A stretch of 38,034 nt of DNA from Ectobacillus panaciterrae DSM 19096 (GTDB lineage: Bacteria; Bacillota; Bacilli; Bacillales; Bacillaceae_G), in NCBI RefSeq assembly GCF_000430785.1, contig NZ_KE387255.1:19314-57347 (forward strand), in the 5' to 3' direction. The translations under genes were made by a program, and so were the position numbers. This document shows, one piece after another, positions 2,059 to 38,034 of the stretch. The notes under the pieces were generated by a model. That model searched no databases. It saw only the letters and a program-made list of their open reading frames with translations, and was not told the origin of the DNA. Each line of letters begins with the position of its first letter. The stretch's first letter is position 1.

Positions 2059-2241
2059 CTGACGGTTTTCGTATTTAAGTTGGATGTTTAAGGTATTGTA
2101 CAGCGCATTCGAACTTATCGTTGACGTCTTTTGTTAAGGTAAAAAACAAATTTAAGGGTAAAATAGGAAATCACGAGGTTTTTTCGAAATTTCACCTTAT
2201 CAAGGGGAGGAATCGGTCTGTTTGCAGCCCTTAAATGTCCA

Positions 2242-2281
2242 AAAGCTTATGAACGGGAGGGAATTCCCGATCATAAGCTTT
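2242..2281 (+). promoter_or_regulatory. Strong stem-loop in the leader of the GT2 gene
   Basis: AAAGCTTATGA (2242-2252) pairs perfectly with TCATAAGCTTT (2271-2281). After one mismatch, CGGGA (2254-2258) pairs with TCCCG (2265-2269), leaving a GGGAAT loop. No T-run follows, so it is not an ordinary terminator. It ends 40 bases before the ATG at 2321 and could be an operator, a processing site or an mRNA stabiliser. Confidence 0.6.
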
Positions 2282-2320
2282 AGAGTTGTATTACGCTCCT
2301 TATACGGAAGGGTGTTAGTA

Positions 2321-3151
2321 ATGTGGATTAACAATAATACCCCAACAGATAATACTCCGTTAACATCGATCATTATTCTCACCTTTAACGGCCTTTCATT
2401 TACAAGGGAATGTATATTCAGTATTTTTCAATACACTAAGGAAAACTATGAATTAATTGTGATTGACAATGGATCTACAGATGGCACTCTTAAATTTCTT
2501 AGATCTCTCCCTAACGCTAAGGTTATCGCTAATCAAAAAAATAGAGGATTTTCAGGCGGCTGCAACCAGGGGTTATCGATTGCAAAAGGAGAAAATATCG
2601 TACTGCTTAACAATGATACCGTTGTTACAGAAGGATGGTTAACCCGGTTACTGTGGCGGCTTAATCACGACGGGTCGATAGGTATAGTGGGCCCCAGATC
2701 AAATATTATTGTGTGGCATCAAGCAATAATGCCAGTTTCTTATAAATCAATACAGCAAATGCAAACTTTCGCGAGTAAATGGACAAAAACACACCACAGA
2801 CAAGGCTATGAAGTCGACCAACTAAGCGGTCTTTGTATGGTTTTTAAAAGAAGCTTAATCGATGTGATTGGAGGGCTTGATGAACGTTTTTTTCCCGGTT
2901 ATTACGAAGATACTGACTTCTGTATAAGAGCTCAAATAAGTGAAAAAAAACTGTGGGTAGCAAATGACGTTTTTATTCATCACTATGGAAGTAGCAGTTT
3001 TAAGCTAAATAAAGAGATGCATGCGGAGATCCTAAAAGAAAGCAGACAAAAGTTTTTTGATAAATGGATGATGGATGATTTGAAACAAATTAGAGAAATA
3101 GTAGAACGTGAAAAGCCTTTTGATCAAGAACGTCACTATATCCCTTTTTAA
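2321..3151 (+). CDS. Family 2 glycosyltransferase (GT-A fold), intact copy
   Basis: This 276-residue enzyme has the classic GT2 order: SIIILTFNGL near residue 15, VIDNGSTDGT near 45, NRGFSGGCNQG near 74, LLNNDTVV (the metal-binding DxD equivalent) near 97, and GLDERFFPGYYEDTDFC (acceptor/catalytic region) near 187. It resembles rhamnosyltransferase-like WcaA/GT2 enzymes that move a nucleotide sugar onto a glycan or protein. There is no membrane segment. The frame stays open upstream to a TTG at 2222, but that start would run through the hairpin at 2242-2281. The ATG at 2321 has a good GGAAGGGTG site and is preferred. The last ~65 codons are duplicated as a wreck at 5427-5631. Just downstream lies the dead, convergent copy of a second GT2 gene. 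Confidence 0.85.
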   Translation: MWINNNTPTDNTPLTSIIILTFNGLSFTRECIFSIFQYTKENYELIVIDNGSTDGTLKFLRSLPNAKVIANQKNRGFSGGCNQGLSIAKGENIVLLNNDTVVTEGWLTRLLWRLNHDGSIGIVGPRSNIIVWHQAIMPVSYKSIQQMQTFASKWTKTHHRQGYEVDQLSGLCMVFKRSLIDVIGGLDERFFPGYYEDTDFCIRAQISEKKLWVANDVFIHHYGSSSFKLNKEMHAEILKESRQKFFDKWMMDDLKQIREIVEREKPFDQERHYIPF

Positions 3152-3170
3152 AAAAGGTTACTTTATTTCA

Positions 3171-3569
3171 ACTCAGTTAAAAGGCTCTCCTTGTTTAAAT
3201 TTAGTCAAAAAGCTAGGTCCTATTCTCACTGGATTTGTTACAGGTAAGTTCAGTTTAACTGCCACTCGTTTTTCTATAGGATGAAGATGATTATTTAAAT
3301 GAATATAATGGAATTCATCATTAAATAATACAACCTCTGGTAAAATAGTTATCTTCGGAGAAATTTTTCGTCGTTCCTGATTGTCGATTATATATCAGAT
3401 GAAGGCCCTTTCACTAATGTCCCATTTGGAATACTCTTCGGCAAGTGAGTGTAAAGTTTCTGGAAGGCTTCAGGGCCTTTACAATATATCCTTAATTTTG
3501 ATTATAAGGTAAAATTGAACAATATTGGTTAAACGATTCCAAAAAGACCAATTATCATCCCAGTGCCTA
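3171..3569 (-). pseudogene. Decayed 3' half of a GT2 gene, a copy of the intact gene at 12176-13459
   Basis: Read on the minus strand, this segment aligns base for base with the C-terminal coding part of the intact GT2 gene at 12176-13459 (shared words include aaaaggctctccttgtttaaatt and ccctttcact). It has lost about 300 bases internally: the text jumps from the region matching about 12375 to that matching about 12683 at the join near 3354. A second gap of about 26 bases lies near 3547. Several single-base changes also break the frame. It is convergent with the GT2 gene at 2321, exactly as in the second copy of this block. Confidence 0.85.
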
Positions 3570-5426: not shown

Positions 5427-5631
5427 AAATGACGTTTTTATCTATCACTATGGAAGCAGCAGTTTTAAGGTAGATAAAGAGATGCATACGAAGATATTAA
5501 AAGAAAGCAGACAAAAATTTTTTGATACATAGATGACGAATAATCTGAAACAAATTAAGGAAATAGTGGAACACGAAAGCCTTTTGATCAAGAACGTCAC
5601 TACATCCCTTTTAAAAGGTTACTTTATTTTA
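5427..5631 (+). pseudogene. Decayed 3' end of a GT2 gene, a copy of 2962-3162
   Basis: The segment reproduces the last ~65 codons of the intact GT2 gene and its 3' flank (gaaagcagacaaaa and ttttgatcaagaacgtcacta occur in both). It carries a premature TAG where the intact gene has TGG (at about 5529-5531) and a one-base deletion in the run gaaaagcc. It ends exactly at the boundary of the inverted-repeat cassette at 5632. The rest of this gene copy is gone. Confidence 0.9.
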
Positions 5632-5656
5632 GGCTCTGTTAAAGAATATTGTTGAT
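5632..5656 (+). repeat. Left terminal inverted repeat of the cassette
   Basis: This 25-base repeat differs from the right end at one position. The base before it closes the left TTATTTTA target duplication (5624-5631). Confidence 0.85.
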
Positions 5657-5669
5657 ATGTCGCAAAAAG

Positions 5670-5695
5670 AAAAGGACCTATTTTTTGGTCCTTTT
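5670..5695 (-). terminator. Intrinsic terminator of the SNF2 helicase gene
   Basis: AAAAGGACC (5670-5678) pairs with GGTCCTTTT (5687-5695) around an 8-base loop. T-rich sequence lies on both sides, so it can stop transcription both ways. It lies inside the cassette, between the left repeat and the helicase stop, so the cassette carries its own terminator. Confidence 0.75.
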
Positions 5696-5806
5696 GTATG
5701 TCTTCTATTTGAAGATTAGGAGCGATACTGTTTCAACAAACTCGTTCGAAGGCTTTCCGATAAAGCATCGACTTTATAGATCAGTTCAAAATGGTCCTAA
5801 CCCCTT

Positions 5807-7074
5807 CTATATCATCAATATTGCCCGAATGTCCTCTTCGGTAAGAGCAAAAGACGCTTTCTCCTCAGAATCGATGATTTCTTCAATCAAATGTCTCTTT
5901 TTCTCTTGCAGTTCATTCATTTTTTCTTCGATTGTGCCTCGGGCAACAAGCTTGATGACCTGTACAACATTTGTCTGACCAATACGATGGGCACGACCAG
6001 CTGCTTGCTTCTCGACTGCAGGATTCCACCAAATGTCATAGAGGATAACGGTATCAGCACCTGTCAGATTGAGGCCTGTTCCGCCTGCTTTCAAGGAAAT
6101 GAGGAAAAAATCACGTTCGCCTGCATTAAAACGATTGCAGATTTCCACTCGTTCTTCAGATGGGGTTTGTCCATCAAGGTAGAAAAAAGGGATTCCTTGA
6201 ATCGCTAAATCTCTACCTATGAGCTCAAGCATTTTCGTAAACTGAGAGAAAATCAACACCCTTCTTCGAGAAAGCTTTGATTCTTCTACAATCTGCATCA
6301 GCTGTTCAAATTTCGCTGAGCTTCCTTTATAGCCGTCCACAAATAAGGCTGGGTGACAACAAATCTGTCGTAACCGAGTCAAACCAGCCAGGATTTTGAT
6401 ACGATTTTTCCTGAGTGTATCTTTGTCCAGATGCTTCAACGTGTCGTGTCGCAGCTTCGCCAAATAGGCAGCGTAAAGCTTCTTCTGATCAGGGAGCAAC
6501 TCCACTGATTCCATCGACTCGATTTTTTCTGGAAGTTCTGAAAGTACATCCTCTTTTAATCTACGAAGCAAAAATGGACGGATCCGCCGGGCAATCGTTT
6601 TCCTTGAGAGGTTACTGTATTCCTTTAACCCCAGGAATAGTTCAGGAAAGACAACGTGAAAAATTGACCACAGCTCCTCTAGTGAATTCTCCACCGGTGT
6701 ACCAGTGAGGGCGAAGCGATAATCTGCCTGTATCCTCTTCACCGCTCGTGCTGTTTGTGTCACAGGATTTTTAAATGCCTGTGCCTCATCAAAAAACACA
6801 GTGTGAAAGACTTGTTTCTCAAACCACTTTATGTCCCTGCGTAATAATGGATAGGAGGTAATGACAACATCCATATCCGTTACATCCTTCTGAATCTTGA
6901 ACCTCTCTGTTTTATTGCCATCAATGACAACGGCTTGTACATCTGGGGCAAATTTCATGATTTCACTAAGCCAGTTATACGTCAAAGATGATGGGCAAAC
7001 AATAAGGACCGGGAACTTCTTTTTACGTATGTCATGAAGCTCTGATAGAATGAACGTGATGCTTTGCAGCGTTT
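5807..7074 (-). CDS. SNF2-family helicase, exon 2 (ATPase motifs Ia-VI)
   Basis: This is the 3' exon of the helicase whose 5' exon is 9929-11879. Joined across the intron it gives 3219 bases, a clean 1072-residue frame. Exon 2 starts with the last two bases of the Walker A lysine codon and reads KTLQSITFIL, VLIVCPSSLTYNWL, FFDEAQAFKN (motif II, DEAQ), FALTGTPVEN (III), IRPFLLRRLKEDVL, RRVLIFSQF (IV), LISLKAGGTGLNLT (V) and QAAGRAHRIGQ (VI). All ATP-hydrolysis motifs are present, so the spliced enzyme should be an active double-stranded-DNA translocase of the bacterial YwqA/HepA-like SWIM-SNF2 group. Its cellular role is poorly known. Alone, this exon would be a dead fragment starting at a TTG. 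Confidence 0.92.
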
Positions 7075-9928
7075 ATGACGATAGGTAAGCTTTTGAATTC
7101 ATCTCCAGCTTTTCCCCCGTCCCACACCGTGCGTGCACCTTTCAATGCACACGGCGTTCCATCGATAGAAATTTACTTCCTTCGTGGTTTTCTCCGTAAA
7201 GGTTTCATCACTGCCTACAACCTCACAGTTGTAAGTGTGTAATTAACTAACAGTTTCCGCTGGTCTTTTCAACGCTTTTTGGTAATTTTCGATTTTCTGC
7301 ATACTCTTAGCTGTTCCTATGTTAGGTCTTCCGCCGTGTATTTTTTGATGACAGAACTTACATATCGTAGCCAGGTTTGGGACTTTATTTACCTCGTCAA
7401 GAGGTAGCCAAGGTTTTATATGATGACAGTGTATGGTGTCAGAATGAAGAGCGACGTCGCAACACTTGCATTTGCATTTGTCTCGATTACAAGCATATTC
7501 CCTGTTCATGATGTATTCATAGTTGTATCTTGGGCTGATGAGCTTGTTTTGCAGTGCCTTTGTCCGTAATTTCAGCATTTGTATCGTGTATAGCGTCTGC
7601 CTGTCCTTCAGGAAGTTTTTCCCTGTCATTCTTTCGTACAGTTTCCTTCCTTCCGGCGTATACGGAGTCAAGCCTGTTTTAATTCGAGTTTGCATTTTGC
7701 TTTTGGTGAAGCTGAATTTGGTCAAACCTATTTTTACACCATCTACTTCCAGATAGAAAATCCTATCATTCCGTTTACCGTGTCGGTTGGGCCTGTTTCG
7801 GACTTGGTTCGCTGGGATCACGTAGTTTTCCCATCTTCGCTTTTGTCCGTTACTTTTCATCTTGCACCATTTTTTATATGCCGCCATATATATTTTCTGG
7901 TCCGCTCTTTTCATAATATGAGCTGAGTGACATACCTTATAAAACTCTGCTATGCCTACGATTTTGGAGTTTATCAATTCAATGATATATCCATTACCGT
8001 ATTGGTCTCGCTTATTGTGAATGGAGCGGATATCCTTGGCAATTTCTCGAACTTTTCCTTTCAACTTTTCGATATTCGGAAGGCTCCGACAGCTAATCCT
8101 CTTGGCTTTACTATTTGGATTTTTGTTGACAAAGAATTCGAATCCGAGGAACTTCATCCTCTTTTCTCTTAAGTCCGTTATGAGCGTTTTCTCTTCAGAG
8201 AGTTCTATCTTCAGAACGTGCTTAAGGTACTTCCTGCATTTGATTAAAATTGATTCGGCTTGTTTTCTATCTTCGCATAAGATTACCCAGTCATCGGCGT
8301 ACCTTATAATTTGGCATTTCTTATGATACTTAGCTACTTTCTTCAAGCCTTGCTTGAAGGGGTTAGGAGCTAGTTGCCTTGCTGGGTGAGCTTGGAACAT
8401 CTTTGCTATCATCCAGTCGAAATTGTTGAGATAGATGTTGGCAAGTAGTGGCGATATAATACCGCCTTGCGGCGTCCCTATGTCTTCCACATACTTTTTT
8501 CCATCCTTCATATAGCCCGCTTTCAGCATTTTCTTGATTATAGCCAGATAGCGTTTGTCCCTTATTCCCATCGCCCACATCATTTTGATTAGTTTGCTGT
8601 GATTGATATTGTCGAAAAATCCTTTGATGTCACCTTCTATGGCGACGTACATCTTGCTTCGAGTCACACGTCCCATGATTTCGGCTTGCGCATGCGCCAC
8701 ACTCCGGAAAGGGCGAAAACCAAAGCTGTATTCGTAGAATTTCGCTTCTGCGACGGGTTCCAGAACAATTCTGGCTAATTCTTGAATAATTCTGTCTATC
8801 ATAGCTGGAATGCCTAGCGGTCTCTTCTTATCCGTTCCAGGTTTCGGAATGTACACACGCCGTACTGGACTAGGATGATAGTTATCGATGTAGTTTCGAA
8901 TCGTTCCGAGAAGTGCCGTTTCATTCATTTGCAGATATTCATTTATATCTTTGTCATCCACACCAACTGTTTTACTTCCTTTGTTGGATTTAATGTTATG
9001 GATGGCTGTCAGGATTGTTTCCCGATGTTTCATAAGTTCTATCAAGTTGTAAAATGGTTCGGCGTTTTCTTTTGCTTTTGTATACATTTCATCAAGCATT
9101 TGTTTCAGACCAGATTCCGATTTGATTCTACGTGTGTTAACCTTCACGTCGTCTCATAACCTCCTTGATTTTAGGATTACAGGTTATGCGTGAATTGACT
9201 GTTTAACTCCCACGTTCCCCGAGGAACGGTTCGTATCCGTAGAATCTGTTAGTTATTATTTTCTATCGACTAGTGTCCTTCGCTAGGATAGTTTTGTGCT
9301 CCTTGACATTTCCACAGCGTTTCATCTGTTTTATAGCCAAATCATTGCCTATCCATCATCGCTACTACGACACTGCTGACTCTCGGCTAACTTCTTTGCT
9401 CCTTTTAGCTCCATTAGCCGAGTCTCAAACGTTCCAAATCATCTATCCCTTTGTTTTCATCCCTTAGGTGCCCTCTATACACCGAGGTTACTCTCTCAAG
9501 TTAGATTGACCTTAACTTCTTGAGTCATCTCGACAGTTTAGGCAAATCCGTCGAGAAGTTTCCTTACATTAGGAAAAGGTAAGGAAATTTCGCCTGTACC
9601 ATCCTTTGACCTACATTAAGATAGCTATGGGTAACGGTGCGTACATGACGAGGGTTCGTCTTCGCTCACCATAGGATGATTTTAAGGACTACCGCCTCAT
9701 ATCGGGGACTGTAGGTTCCCGTCAGTAGACGACTTCACCTGGCTCTCATACCGCGGTTACAAAAGGATAACCGCCGCATGCAGGAGGCTCATAGATAGGA
9801 TTATTCTTTCACAGGTCATTAATCCCATTTGGGGATTTCACCCAACAATTCGATGATTCAGTTAGAGCATTTCATATTGCTCTCGCAACTTCATGCTTAT
9901 GCAGCATTTATATGCGAACGTTTCGCAC
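7075..9928 (-). mobile_element. Complete group II intron (2854 bp) interrupting the SNF2 helicase
   Basis: On the minus strand the intron begins GTGCGAAACG (consensus GUGYG) at 9928 and ends CGTCAT (consensus AY) at 7075. Removing exactly this segment rebuilds GGT-AAA-ACG, the GKT of Walker A, in frame. Domain V lies at about 7109-7155 (CGCCGTGTGC...GGTGCACGCACGG, GAAA-type loop). Domain VI follows, with a candidate branch A 8 bases from the 3' end. The 5' exon end TGGGTA can pair with TACCCA at 9628-9633 (EBS1), and the preceding GGGAC with GTCCC at 9705-9709 (EBS2). These lie about 300 and 220 bases into the intron, as expected for a IIA/IIB architecture. Confidence 0.93.
7243..9147 (-). 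CDS. ltrA: Group II intron reverse transcriptase/maturase with HNH endonuclease
   Basis: This 634-residue intron-encoded protein helps the intron fold and splice, and copies it into new DNA sites. Reverse transcriptase signatures are RRVYIPKPGTDKKRPLGIP near 96, EGDIKGFFDNI (first catalytic Asp) near 171, GTPQGGIISPLLANIYL near 224 and RYADDWVIL (YADD, 283-286). The maturase X domain follows at about 390-470. The C-terminus carries an HNH endonuclease with zinc ligands (CKCKCC, HCHHIKPWLPLDEV, ICKFCHQKIHGG). The start is a GTG at 9147 with AAGGAGG 12 bases upstream. An overlapping mini-frame (ATG-AGA-CGA..., six codons) lies between the two. No frameshift or missing motif is seen, so the intron looks mobile-competent. 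Confidence 0.95.
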   Translation of the reverse strand: MKVNTRRIKSESGLKQMLDEMYTKAKENAEPFYNLIELMKHRETILTAIHNIKSNKGSKTVGVDDKDINEYLQMNETALLGTIRNYIDNYHPSPVRRVYIPKPGTDKKRPLGIPAMIDRIIQELARIVLEPVAEAKFYEYSFGFRPFRSVAHAQAEIMGRVTRSKMYVAIEGDIKGFFDNINHSKLIKMMWAMGIRDKRYLAIIKKMLKAGYMKDGKKYVEDIGTPQGGIISPLLANIYLNNFDWMIAKMFQAHPARQLAPNPFKQGLKKVAKYHKKCQIIRYADDWVILCEDRKQAESILIKCRKYLKHVLKIELSEEKTLITDLREKRMKFLGFEFFVNKNPNSKAKRISCRSLPNIEKLKGKVREIAKDIRSIHNKRDQYGNGYIIELINSKIVGIAEFYKVCHSAHIMKRADQKIYMAAYKKWCKMKSNGQKRRWENYVIPANQVRNRPNRHGKRNDRIFYLEVDGVKIGLTKFSFTKSKMQTRIKTGLTPYTPEGRKLYERMTGKNFLKDRQTLYTIQMLKLRTKALQNKLISPRYNYEYIMNREYACNRDKCKCKCCDVALHSDTIHCHHIKPWLPLDEVNKVPNLATICKFCHQKIHGGRPNIGTAKSMQKIENYQKALKRPAETVS

Positions 9929-11879
9929 TACCCAGTCCCATATCATCCGCAAGAATCCCTCCTAAGCCATAGCTGGCAAGTGTTTTCATCCATTTATAGC
10001 CGCGTTTTTGATAGTCTCGCAATATCGACTCTAAACTCTTCGGCACCTCGAACTCCAAACTGCCCGGATTGCGGATGTTTTCCAAGAACTGAAGGAACGA
10101 TTCCTCTAACGTGAATGCATTATCATCAACAGAATCAAGCAGCTGAAGACCCCTGACGATTGGTAAATTCAAGCCACTTTCCAGATCTTCATTTTGGACT
10201 GGTAGTGCATTCAGAAAACGATTAATTTCTTCAAATTCCCTTGTCTCCAACGAGAGTAACGATCCGTTCCGCAAACGATAATACTTCCGTTTTTCCTCTA
10301 GAGCCAATAGAACCTCACGTATATGTTTTTCAAGAATGCCATCCATTTCAAATTTGAATTCCAGCCAATTGGTCCGTTCTTTTTTGACCTTTACCCTAAC
10401 CTGCGGACGAGCATTCCCTCTGAAAATCCGATTTCTCACTGCGGTAGTTGCATATATTTGTACAAGTTTTTGAAGCTCGGGAACGACATGGTACAAAAAC
10501 TCATACTCCAACTCTTCATTATGCAAAAAATATCCGCCGTCCGTCTTGGCAAACAAGCTATCCTCCATCAGCTGCAGGATCGCATCCTCCTTTTCCACAT
10601 CCCTTATAAGCATAGAGCCTGCCCGGAGTTCCCGACTTTCCAATGGATTAATTACAATATTTTCATAGTGAAACTCCAGCCCAGCAAGCAGGCGATTTTT
10701 CACACGATCCAAGTATAGCTTGGTAATCAACGGTGTCTTCACAAACTGCTTGGAAATAGCTCCAGATATTTGGACATCGCCTAGTCTTTTCAAACCTGGA
10801 ACCACTTTTTCCAGAAAAAAATCTATTTGCTCCTGAGGAATCGGAATTTGATTCGTTCCTGAAGCATCTAGCATCTGTTTTAGGTCTGAAAGACGGTTAC
10901 AGTCCTCACTTTTCATCTGTATTAGTTTTCCTTCAGATAGGACAGACCTATATGAATTCAACACAACCATCCGATTCAGCCCATTGATTTTCAGTTGATA
11001 GCCTTTGCCCTCGGCTTCAGCAAAGTCAAACTGTAAAGAAAGTGGTTCGTTCGATAAGCGAAGACCGTCATACATATTCCAGTCATACTCCAGCTTCACC
11101 ATTGGTGCTTTCTCAAGTATAGGAAAAAGCCTGTCCCAAGAAGATGGAGGAATCAGTAATATATGATTATCGCTTACATAATCTGATTCATCTGACAATT
11201 TTTCGATGTACACCTTTTCATCATGGATTACTTGTATGAGTTGCTGAATCACAGCATCTGTTTCATTTTGAAAGCAATGAAGGCTTGGGTCGTACGTGAA
11301 TAAAATGGAAAGCACGCTGGGAATACCTTCTTTCACTTGCTCCAGAAAATCTCGGATATTTTGCACATGTGTCGTCCCGATCTTAACTTCTATTCCGAAC
11401 ATGTGTCGTCCCTTGCCTATGGTGACGGGTTTACACGTAAACTCTGTATCAAGCACTTGCCTGTTTTCAAAGTGAAGCTGATGGCTGCTTGGTCGTATAG
11501 GCTGATCATTGAAAAGGGTCAGCAAACCTTCTGTCAGTGCTTGATTTGTTGAAGAGTCAGAGTGTCGTTTGCTGAAGCTAATAGGGATTGTTCCTTGACG
11601 CTGGTGTTCGTAAATCGACAGTAAAACGGCCGCAATATGCTGACAATCCCTTTGAAAGGAAGCTAGCGTAGGGCAGCTGCATTTCGTGCGAAAGCCTCCG
11701 TTGGCATCCTTTTCAATGGTGACATGGAAATCTTCCATTCCTGTAACCGTTGCTTCACAACCACCGGGACTGTAATTTTCAAATGTCACGTTATTAGCGC
11801 GATATAAAGAGTCTCCTCTTTTGAAGGAGACTGTACCGCACATTTCTTTAATGATTTTTTGATTTAATTTTATATTCAA
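9929..11879 (-). CDS. SNF2-family helicase, exon 1 (SWIM zinc finger and N-terminal region)
   Basis: Exon 1 encodes residues 1-650 plus the first base of codon 651. A SWIM zinc finger is visible at 67-81 (C67, C69, C79, H81). A long bacterial SNF2-associated region follows, then LRDYQKRGYKWMKTLASYGLGGILADDMGLG, where the frame meets the intron exactly at the Walker A lysine (K651). The frame is open up to a GTG at 12020. I prefer the TTG at 11879 because AAGGAG lies 8 bases before it and because the resulting start, followed by KLNQKIIKEMCGTVSFKRGDS, fits the family's N-terminus. Unspliced transcript would give a truncated 660-residue product ending in ten intron-encoded residues. The gene fills the cassette apart from the intron. 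Confidence 0.92.
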
Positions 11880-12026
11880 ATGCCTTGCTCCTTCCTGAGG
11901 ATATTTCGCTTCTGTTATCAAGGCTTGCTTATGTGAAATTGGTGTTTTGAATAAATGTGGTGCATGTATGAAATTTTGCATTCGTGCATTAATTACCCCT
12001 TGATAAAATCTACTTATCACAATTGT

Positions 12027-12055
12027 ATCATAAGGGCGGAATATTTTTTATTGAA
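12027..12055 (-). promoter_or_regulatory. Probable sigma-A promoter of the SNF2 helicase
   Basis: On the minus strand TTCAAT (12050-12055) is followed after 17 bases by TATGAT (12027-12032). This lies inside the cassette, so the gene travels with its own promoter and terminator. Confidence 0.5.
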
Positions 12056-12145
12056 CTATCCTCCCCCGTTAGCCATCCATGAAGCAAGGCTTCACCACAA
12101 AAAATGGAAGAAAATGCCGTTCTTACATGGTAGTTTAATAAGGAA

Positions 12146-12170
12146 ATCAACAACATTCTTTAACAGAGCC
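12146..12170 (-). repeat. Right terminal inverted repeat of the cassette
   Basis: It matches the left end at 24 of 25 bases. The adjoining target duplication (12171-12178) contains the stop codon of the neighbouring GT2 gene, so insertion barely spared that gene. Confidence 0.85.
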
Positions 12171-12175
12171 TTATT

Positions 12176-13459
12176 TTAAAAAACGATCTTCCAGTTAAAA
12201 GGCTCTCCTTGTTTAAATTTAGTCAAAAAACTAGATCCAATTCTCACTGGGTTTGTTACAGGCAGGTTCAATTTAACTGCCACTCGTTCTTCTATAGGAT
12301 GAAGGTGATTATTCAAACTAATATAATAGAATTCATCATGAAATAATACACCATCTGGTAAAATAGTTATCTCATTTGATAATGCTTCAATCGGCAAGCC
12401 ATCTGGTAATTCGGCTAATAATTGGTCGCTGACTATTACAATTTGATTCCATTGGAATTTAAAATCTCTAAATGCTTTTTCATTTTTAATAAGATGCTTT
12501 TTATTGTTCTGTATATAGTATACTGCTGGATGTTCAGGAGACTTAATGAGCCTTTGATTTGGTAACAGTGTCAAGTTTAAAAAAATCTGGTCGTCAATAA
12601 AAATCCCCTCTTTATATTTAAAAAGAAACGGATCCGGGATTTTTACAACCTGGTTATGGTCATATTTCAGCTTTTCAAAGATTTCCGGAGAAATTTTCCG
12701 CCGTTCTTGATTGTCGATTATATATATCTCAGATGAAGGCCCTTTCACTAGAGTTCCATTTGGAATACTATTCGGCAAGTGAGCGTAAAGTTTCTGGAAG
12801 GATTCTGGGCCTTTAAAAGCGATATCTAAAGTTTTGGGAATAGGATAAAATGAATTAAACTTGGTTAAACGATTCCAAAAAGCTGCATCACCATTAAACC
12901 AATAAGCTGGATCATCATCCCAGTAGCCCCCGTGTTTCCTAAATATTTTATCAGCTATTTCTCGAGTATGCATGATAGAACAATGATCAACCAATCCGGC
13001 TGGTTTATTTAATATCCCCTTGGTATTTCGGGTAATTTCATATTGCATTTTTCCATTTTCATCTAAAAACCTTACTATCTGCTGGGAATAAACAATTTCT
13101 ACTTGCCGATTTTGCTTTAGTACATCAACCATCACTCTAAAACGTTCAGATAAAAATATATTGTCATCGGTTAGATAAGTGATATATTTCCCTTTTGCCT
13201 TAAGCAACGCTCCATTTATCAGAGTGGCATATCTGGTTTTTTTATACCTTTCGCTATCTTGAATGTTACTGTTAAAATAATATATTCTCGGGTCATTTAA
13301 ATAGCGTTTGATGATTCCAACCGTTTCCTCATTGGAGTTATCATCCATGATGAACAATTCCCAATTCCCCATTGTTTGAGCAAGTACACTTTCAATCGCT
13401 TGCCCAATTGTATGGGATTTGTTATAACTTGTCAAAATGGCCGATACGATTGGAGCCAT
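12176..13459 (-). CDS. Family 2 glycosyltransferase with C-terminal repeat domain, intact copy
   Basis: This 427-residue protein starts at an ATG behind AAGGAGGACGTG. Residues 1-215 are a GT2 catalytic domain: VSAILTSYNKSHTI, ELFIMDDNSNEET, ITYLTDDNIF (DxD-type metal site near 98) and HGGYWDDDPAYWFNGDAAFW. Residues about 225-427 hold three related ~50-residue modules of the type 'G.L+K.p...+YYI.n...+.I....F....F.w.qiv.v.d.ll...p.G' (NGTLVKGPSSEIYIID, NQRLIKSPEHPAVYYIQ, PDGVLFHDEFYYISL). Such modules occur in many surface-associated proteins, probably for binding. No secretion signal is present, so it acts in the cytosol. Its last codon abuts the cassette's target duplication. A wrecked copy lies at 3171-3569. 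Confidence 0.85.
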   Translation of the reverse strand: MAPIVSAILTSYNKSHTIGQAIESVLAQTMGNWELFIMDDNSNEETVGIIKRYLNDPRIYYFNSNIQDSERYKKTRYATLINGALLKAKGKYITYLTDDNIFLSERFRVMVDVLKQNRQVEIVYSQQIVRFLDENGKMQYEITRNTKGILNKPAGLVDHCSIMHTREIADKIFRKHGGYWDDDPAYWFNGDAAFWNRLTKFNSFYPIPKTLDIAFKGPESFQKLYAHLPNSIPNGTLVKGPSSEIYIIDNQERRKISPEIFEKLKYDHNQVVKIPDPFLFKYKEGIFIDDQIFLNLTLLPNQRLIKSPEHPAVYYIQNNKKHLIKNEKAFRDFKFQWNQIVIVSDQLLAELPDGLPIEALSNEITILPDGVLFHDEFYYISLNNHLHPIEERVAVKLNLPVTNPVRIGSSFLTKFKQGEPFNWKIVF

Positions 13460-19901: not shown

Positions 19902-20665
19902 TTTAATCCCTCCTCACCTATACACATCTCTTTTAGAATATGTAACCAGTTTTTTTTGGTTAAAACAAAATGACTTATATTTTTTTATTCCTTTCTTAAC
20001 AGGTCTCCCAAGTTGCTGCGTAATCATTGTAAAATATGCTTGCTCTTCGTCCCCCCGACCTATATAACTTACCAAAACGCTACATAGAATGTTGTCTTTC
20101 AGCCTTTGGACACTGTCAAGCTCCCGTTTCAACTCATTTCGAGGCTCAATCACATTCAATCCTGCTTTCGGATACGATTAACCCAAACAATTACTCGTGT
20201 GGGTCTAAGGCTCGCTATTGGTGATTTAGTTAGAATCTTACCAAACTGGGTTTCTATCTGCTAAATTACGCACCTTACTTAGTCGCTCCGAAAATCGAGT
20301 CACTTATATAAATAATAGCAATAAGCGACTCGCAAGTTGTATGGCTTTTCCACTGCGTATCAAGAACTACAAGTGATGTTTACAGAGCATTATGCTTAAT
20401 AAAAAAAAGCGTATCCATGGAGGTAGAGCCAGCACATTATTCTATCTCTCTGCTGAAATATCCTATCTATGTTTTACACAAAATTCTTGACGCTCCCCCT
20501 CATTATCAGTAAGTTACATAAAAAATGCACAATTTAATATAATTTGCATATAAAAATAGTAGAGTAAACGTTTAGAAGATCATAATTGATAATAGGCACC
20601 CGTAATAGTTACAATTTTGATTGTTACAGCAATGTTTTAAGCTTTGCTTCTAGAGAAGAACTCTC
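19902..20665. other. 764-bp region of uncertain content
   Basis: An 81-codon minus-strand frame (19914-20159, TTG start, ending RDVYR) lies 12 bases upstream of the methyltransferase, with only a weak AGCAGGA site and no recognisable family. It may be debris. At about 20480-20507 the plus strand reads tttacacaaaattcttgac followed by gctcccc, which resembles the termini of IS256-family elements. No transposase sequence could be read beside it. The rest holds nothing I can name. Confidence 0.35.
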
Positions 20666-37140: not shown

Positions 37141-37264
37141 GAAAATAAAAAGACGCTTGCACAAAGCAAGCGTCCCATACGAAATTTGCGGCGAAAGACC
37201 GCGCGCCACATCGCGCGTTTAGCCCGAAGGCTTATCATCCGACTTATGCAAATCAGCTCATCGC
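37141..37264 (-). ncRNA. Candidate structured small RNA with its own promoter and terminator
   Basis: On the minus strand a sigma-A-like promoter (TTGTGC at 37294-37299, 17 bases, TATATT at 37271-37276) precedes a G+C-rich segment unlike its AT-rich surroundings. ATTTGC near the start can pair with GCAAAT about 60 bases later. Between them lie AGCC-UUCG-GGCU, CGCGC-gaugug-GCGCG and GCGG...CCGC hairpins. The transcript ends in a perfect 9-bp terminator (GACGCTTGC/GCAAGCGTC, 37152-37174) with a T5 run. No open frame of use exists. It could be a known Bacillus sRNA (a CsfG-like RNA is one guess) that I cannot identify by eye. Confidence 0.65.
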
Positions 37265-37653: not shown

Positions 37654-38034
37654 TTACGCAATCCGTAGATACTTTCTTTTTGTTTCTTCTGGGATATGAC
37701 GCATCTCTCCGTACAGTTCTTTTGCCAAGATGTTGCGAGCACCATGAATGTCCCGGTGTTCTTCGTAGCCGCACACACAAACGTAGTTGCGTGTCCGCAC
37801 TTTCTTTCTTCTTTGACAACATGGACATGTTTGAGAAGTGTATGCTTCGTCTACAAGAAACAAGAGAATGCCTTTTGCGTGCAGTTTATACGCCAAATAC
37901 GCGCGGAGTGTGCCAAATGACCAATTTGACAGCTTTTGGTTGACGTGTTTCGTCCGTTTTTTCTTTTTCCTTCGCTGTACGCCTTCTGGATTGCCGACGA
38001 AAACTTGCTTCACTTCGTTTTCCAGGCACCAATC
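37654..38034 (-). CDS. tnpB: TnpB (IS605 OrfB) RNA-guided nuclease, C-terminal part; start lies beyond the right edge
   Basis: At least 126 residues are visible. [38 protein letters not shown] leads to [23 protein letters not shown] (four-cysteine zinc finger) and [20 protein letters not shown], with the last RuvC-type catalytic Asp in HRDIHGARN. These are the final elements of a TnpB, the ancestor-type RNA-guided nuclease of IS200/IS605 transposons. The visible part is intact. It differs from the short TnpB fragment at 26463-26690, which covers an earlier part of the protein. Confidence 0.9.

Follow-up and report, generated by a model that had tools for sequence, protein, structure and literature searches.

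A 6.5-kb segment of the genome of Ectobacillus panaciterrae DSM 19096, carrying an SNF2/SWIM helicase gene that is itself interrupted by a group II intron, is very probably a non-autonomous mobile insertion cassette (MIC) of the IS1595 type. It lies within a stretch of 38,034 nt (hereafter the window) on contig NZ_KE387255.1 of assembly GCF_000430785.1, a genome labelled G000 below. The element spans window positions 5632–12170 (6539 bp) and is closed by terminal inverted repeats that agree in 24 of their 25 positions, GGCTCTGTTAAAGAATATTGTTGAT at 5632–5656 (+) and GGCTCTGTTAAAGAATGTTGTTGAT at 12146–12170 (−), with the exact 8-bp sequence TTATTTTA directly abutting both ends on their outer side.

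An earlier note on this DNA had described such repeats and such a duplication, and both are confirmed at 5624–12178. Among 52 facing end pairs, drawn from most but not all of the stretches fetched from genomes of the family, an exact 8-bp duplication is present in 13 and in none of 1040 shifted controls; one further pair has a duplication matching at 7 of 8 positions. The check that the note had proposed, a search of the genome for the 25-bp end, gave 13 occurrences in G000 at up to 3 mismatches and none for the reversed pattern, and within the window only the two outer ends score at least 15/19. The same contig also holds a paralogous stretch that lacks the element: there, the match to the left flank ends in TTTATTT, the match to the right flank starts with CAGTTAAAAGG, and no element stands between them. 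The features of the element and this stretch are as follows.

2962–3354 (+), paralogous stretch without the element, matching the left flank at 87% and the right flank at 91%
5624–5631, left target-site duplication TTATTTTA
5632–5656 (+), terminal inverted repeat, A-end
5632–5706 (+), A-end module common to other G000 cassettes (87% to C1:261985, 82% to C5:114599, 75% to C16:62689)
5670–5695, terminator-like hairpin with a 9-bp stem inside the A-end, detected on both strands
5807–7074 (−), helicase exon 2 (SNF2-rel_dom, Helicase_C)
7075–9928 (−), group II intron of 2854 bp, beginning GTGCG and ending AT
7243–9147 (−), intron-encoded reverse transcriptase/maturase, 634 aa
9929–12020 (−), helicase exon 1 (SWIM, SNF2_assoc, start of the SNF2 domain)
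12055–12170 (−), B-end module, 85% over 110 bp to G000:C13:78393 and 87% over 106 bp to G000:C24:1379
12146–12170 (−), terminal inverted repeat, B-end
12171–12178, right target-site duplication TTATTTTA

The insertion site is a glycosyltransferase region, and the last three bases of the right TTATTTTA form the stop codon of a glycosyltransferase open reading frame (ORF) at 12176–13459 (−). The right flank has no match in three genus-mates. Glycosyltransferase gene ends are duplicated around the element (2222–3354, 5427–5629 and 12192–12372), and on its left side one copy is reduced to a short tail.

The cargo is a helicase gene with its own mobile element

Everything inside the element runs on the − strand: helicase exon 1, the group II intron with its reverse transcriptase/maturase, and helicase exon 2. 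The start codon of exon 1 is uncertain, the matches of relatives beginning anywhere from residue 1 to 48. The intron is a separate mobile element within the helicase gene, splitting the codon of the Walker A lysine after its first base. In the six relatives displayed, DNA matches end at 7074 and restart at 9929–9931, and the intron is absent from all 80 relatives that allowed the gap between the exon matches to be measured (75 bp in 79 of them, 74 bp in the other; L089 was not measurable). From the form of the intron we infer that it splices and that the helicase stays functional.

A Pfam scan found no transposase among the three main ORFs (small overlapping ORFs were left out of the scan), which together with the ends and the duplication bears out the earlier note's description of a transposase-free, passenger-carrying element. 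The helicase is the sole gene with the SNF2_assoc domain (PF08455) found in G000, and two of the four genomes of the genus, G000 counted, have such a gene. In a curated-family search for anti-phage SNF2 systems (Dpd, Zorya, DISARM), the exons were searched separately, so that whole-protein cut-offs are not strictly applicable; the best NCBIfam match of exon 2 is pilus_reg_Snf2 at 468.6 bits (cut-off 1100), followed by ZorD at 144.8 bits (cut-off 1500), and its PADLOC matches are DpdE at 334 bits and ZorD at 272 bits.

A second group II intron match lies elsewhere in the window, at 20041–20254 (−) (Rfam group-II-D1D4-6); no reverse transcriptase occurs among the ORFs of at least 80 aa beside it, and it is perhaps a remnant.

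The ends belong with IS1595

The earlier note had named IS6 and IS1595 as families that might share the ends, and the second of these fits. Three transposase-bearing elements have ends of this kind and exact 8-bp duplications, the length typical of the IS1595 family. One, the 2319-bp element C17:49374–51692, contains the only IS1595 transposase gene found in G000 (assigned by NCBIfam) together with a VOC-family passenger gene, and its ends read GGCTATGTTAAA......TGTTGAT. The other two have GGCTCTGTTAAA ends and lie in G017, with a SUKH passenger, and in G018 (G018:C1:939513–941113; L161 1014–2614), where the transposase has an internal stop and the passenger is a glycerol-3-phosphate acyltransferase that we read as PlsY. 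The G018 passenger is unusual in being of a core type. IS6 was set aside, with no dedicated search, after ends and duplication had matched the transposase-bearing IS1595 elements.

The helicase element combines what distinguishes an MIC, namely insertion sequence (IS)-type repeats with a target duplication, cargo with no transposase among the main ORFs and, in the same genome, a related IS whose ends are similar though not identical, with ends and a duplication length shared with transposase-bearing IS1595 elements. A degenerate form of the end pattern occurs in all 19 family genomes, with one match overall for the reversed control. Of the family's 13 matches to PF12762, 4 have paired ends around them, whatever the end type, within loci of about 3.4 kb.

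End modules differ and the A-end holds a hairpin

Inward of the inverted repeat, the A-end and B-end of the helicase element diverge in sequence. The A-end is 74–87% identical over 47–78 bp to A-ends at C1, C5 (two) and C16, and models of the A-end and B-end match 18 and 16, respectively, of the 19 family genomes; with up to 150 candidates scored in each genome, the numbers of matches are minimum values. On RNA folding in the direction of the end, the hairpin stability of five A-ends was equalled by 1, 0, 9, 3 and 2 of 200 shuffles, and that of three B-ends by 71, 0 and 76 of 200, only the C13 B-end being unusually stable. The idea that the terminator stem covaries was dropped: an alignment of the five A-ends shows double-sided change in one of nine pairs, in two similar sequences; another pair is changed to G-T, and in C5:114599 three pairs are broken.

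Much of the B-end signal is an inner hairpin repeat that is present also without the terminal repeat. This inner part (about 80 bp) stands without a terminal repeat at G000:C74:1156–1235, at C58:22306–22388 and in other family genomes, and is perhaps an independent repeat family. In the cassette-end analysis, a matching stretch was found directly upstream of the helicase in G002, and similar stretches near the helicase at L083 and L088. Adjacent matches had suggested that complete small repeats consist of an A-end joined to a B-end, an idea abandoned because in L170, the one case read, the inner B-end part is the hairpin repeat standing beside an A-end inside a 1097-bp element.

The promoter and terminator that the earlier note had assigned to the helicase gene fare differently. 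The promoter is not supported: a scan of 11900–12200 for a sigma-70-like promoter near the B-end gave no match, against 1.4 expected by chance, and at the A-end a single weak match (9/12, with 0.6 expected) points out of the element. The terminator at 5670–5695 is present; because it sits inside a module common to other cassettes, it belongs to the end of the element and need not be the gene's own.

A family of cassettes and a possible shared polarity

The 13 elements with exact duplications are found in G000 (C16, C17 and C32), G003 (a small repeat of 171 bp), G004, G007, G017 (six) and G018, and 3 of them are ISs with a transposase of this end type. The G004 element, 7.6 kb long, carries cupin and DUF6944 cargo and a nested IS1595 of another end type; its 408-aa ORF is presumably an IS110-type transposase. 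The C16 element in G000 (C16:62689–65143; L036 8690–11144) has the exact duplication TAAATAAA and no transposase, and holds a PucR-type regulator and an EamA transporter. Two further end pairs, one in G000:C5 and a 6.7-kb pair in G003 with ordinary genes between its ends, were rejected as units because they share no duplication.

By a strict finder, nine of the 13 have a strong hairpin at one of their ends, with the stem starting 35–42 bp from the tip and, for each of the nine, none of 100 shuffles giving a stem as long; the helicase element has a weaker second stem at the opposite end (6 bp, equalled in 2 of 100 shuffles). In each of the nine, the longest ORF points to the end with the strong hairpin (two-sided sign test about 0.004), although these cases are not fully independent, since six fall in two genomes' worth of related ends. 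Left out of this count were G004 and G007, which have imperfect hairpins by eye that the finder missed, and G017f and the G003 small repeat, in which it detected no strong hairpin. In all three transposase-bearing elements, the passenger gene is the one nearest the hairpin end. A 539-bp element at C1, outside the 13 with a duplication of 6/8, is an exception when the longest ORF is scored, that ORF being antisense, but its DUF3934 gene has the expected direction, toward the hairpin.

These observations give about an even chance that IS1595-ended cassettes form a polar system in this family, in which cargo of a single direction has a B-end upstream of it and, downstream, an A-end that places a terminator at the same position with differing stem sequences. 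Transposases acting in trans would then carry ordinary genes about one at a time, each as an insulated unit, the cargo ranging from small ORFs to a PlsY-type acyltransferase, cupin-family enzymes and the SNF2_assoc helicase.

The helicase is free of these ends in relatives

We compared the helicase with the best 80 of its 231 matches in named genomes. By their titles, two of the 80 records are complete chromosomes; the others are draft contigs, so that a chromosomal place for the gene is mostly assumed. Across 81 scanned loci (the 80 and a short G002 locus, several being short on one side), no end pair with a 7- or 8-base duplication surrounds the helicase. Two weak facing ends (15/19 each) lie around it about 10 kb apart at L074, with no duplication, and the longer G002 locus has no end above 14/19. 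When inverted repeats of any kind were sought around the gene in 80 loci, 79 from relatives and one from the window, the window scored 23, with an 8-bp duplication, and the next locus, L054, 16, with none; the null from swapped flanks has a 99th percentile of 14 and a maximum of 21. Since the examined relatives lack a duplicated pair of these ends, a normally free-standing gene appears to have become cargo.

The surroundings of the gene vary. With 3 kb taken on both sides and the window counted, the commonest neighbour family occurs in 10 of 66 loci, and the four ORFs that adjoin it in the window have no match among its neighbours at the remaining 65. The finding that the earlier note had named as contrary, the same helicase in a conserved syntenic place without the ends, is seen by half: such ends are missing around the gene elsewhere, but its place is not conserved. 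In G002 the helicase precedes a DEAD-box gene whose homologue in G000 (C74, 92–93% DNA identity) has no adjoining helicase; as the two genes stand together in 4 of the 81 loci, of which some are short, the arrangement is not shown to be ancestral.

In a tree of exon 1, six copies form a supported group (98): that of the window and those of Bacillus sp. PAMC26568, Metabacillus idriensis, Peribacillus frigoritolerans F-D2 and two Paenisporosarcina. The genus-mate G002 lies outside it; the exon-2 tree has no supported set. The exon-1 tree hints at a transfer of the helicase, for which we make no claim. A plasmid origin of the helicase was rejected, the nearest plasmid homologue being 48.7% identical. 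Plasmid records matching the element DNA number 278, and the 15 of them listed hold group II introns or distant helicases, one having no annotation.

Elsewhere in the window are a match to the BsrF small RNA at 37152–37264 (−) (Rfam RF01411, 97.8 bits) and an ORF at 37654–38034 with a Cas12f1-like/TnpB zinc-binding domain (PF07282), which crosses the window edge.

Alternative explanations

Several observations weigh against a single transposed cassette. Exact duplications are missing from 39 of the 52 end pairs, so that many such pairs do not mark a single insertion. The sole IS1595 transposase found in G000 belongs to an element whose ends read GGCTATG..., where those of the cassette read GGCTCTG..., and it may therefore not be the mover of the cassette. 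The helicase cassette is known from a single copy in the one strain of the species examined, and the assembly is a draft of 189 contigs with an estimated contamination of 4.03%. These last figures are also what would speak for an assembly artefact or a contaminant contig, which is scarcely credible here: the element lies inside one 57-kb contig that also carries the paralogous stretch, and other contigs of this assembly contain its end modules as well. A resident helicase gene flanked by two independent insertions of small IS1595-type repeats, with the unit never having moved whole, would fit the abundance of such ends in every family genome and the G003 6.7-kb pair, which encloses ordinary genes and has differing outer flanks. 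We consider it very unlikely, because the outer flanks of the helicase element carry an exact duplication of a kind never seen in the shifted controls, no inner ends, such as two complete small repeats should have left, are seen at the 15/19 threshold, and the paralogous stretch lacks the element.

A different question is how the cassette arose. Compatible with the IS1595-type cassette is an origin in which the helicase, instead of being caught directly between two ends, first rode on an autonomous IS1595 whose transposase was lost later. The three elements that combine a transposase with a VOC, SUKH or PlsY-type passenger favour this course. Against it, the DNA from the B-end to the helicase showed no recognisable remnant of a transposase, and helicase DNA homology reaches to 123–267 bp from the B-end tip in the six relatives displayed. 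We regard such an origin as plausible, at somewhat less than an even chance.

Relation to known elements

Mobile insertion cassettes carry cargo genes. An IS1595-family 'transporter IS' with passenger genes was reportedly described by Siguier et al. in 2009, a paper cited in PMC3129680; the helicase element resembles it in its IS1595-type ends, 8-bp duplication and passenger gene, but differs in having no transposase of its own among the three main ORFs scanned. Passages of PMC6542083 and PMC3129680 describe MICs as lacking their own transposase, having IS-type ends and being supplied with transposase from elsewhere, and present transposase-less cassettes and ISs with passenger genes as known kinds; reference titles in both place MIC231 of the Bacillus cereus group with IS231. 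As far as these passages go, MIC231 and its relatives share with the helicase element the lack of a transposase, the IS-type ends and the dependence on an outside enzyme. MIC231 belongs with IS231, whereas the ends and duplication here match IS1595 elements and the cargo is an SNF2/SWIM helicase gene interrupted by a group II intron. The qnrD MICs of Proteeae are alike in being offered, by the title of PMC3913671, as an explanation of gene mobilisation, and differ in cargo and host; PMC7371123 contributes a table row on IS1595.

Among the papers listed in searches of the open-access literature, we recognised none that describes IS1595 elements or MICs with an SNF2 helicase as cargo, or polar, terminator-bearing IS1595 cassettes. 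The 'new type of cargo' proposed earlier holds only in part, since transposase-less cassettes and passenger-carrying ISs are already known and other ordinary genes share the same ends in this family.

Proposed mechanism and implications

The proposed movement is read from a comparison of sequences. The helicase gene would have come to stand with a B-end on one side and an A-end on the other; an IS1595-group transposase, either the one found in G000 or a related one, would act in trans and pair both 25-bp ends, and the cassette would enter an AT-rich target with duplication of 8 bp. The A-end terminator may then halt transcription of the cargo at the boundary and insulate it from the target.

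If cassettes of this kind move chromosomal genes singly to new places, the mobile end providing the terminator, they would offer a simple, integrase-free route by which ordinary genes spread. In the helicase case, a gene that is free-standing in relatives would have become the sole cargo of a cassette, with a second mobile element lodged in its Walker A codon.

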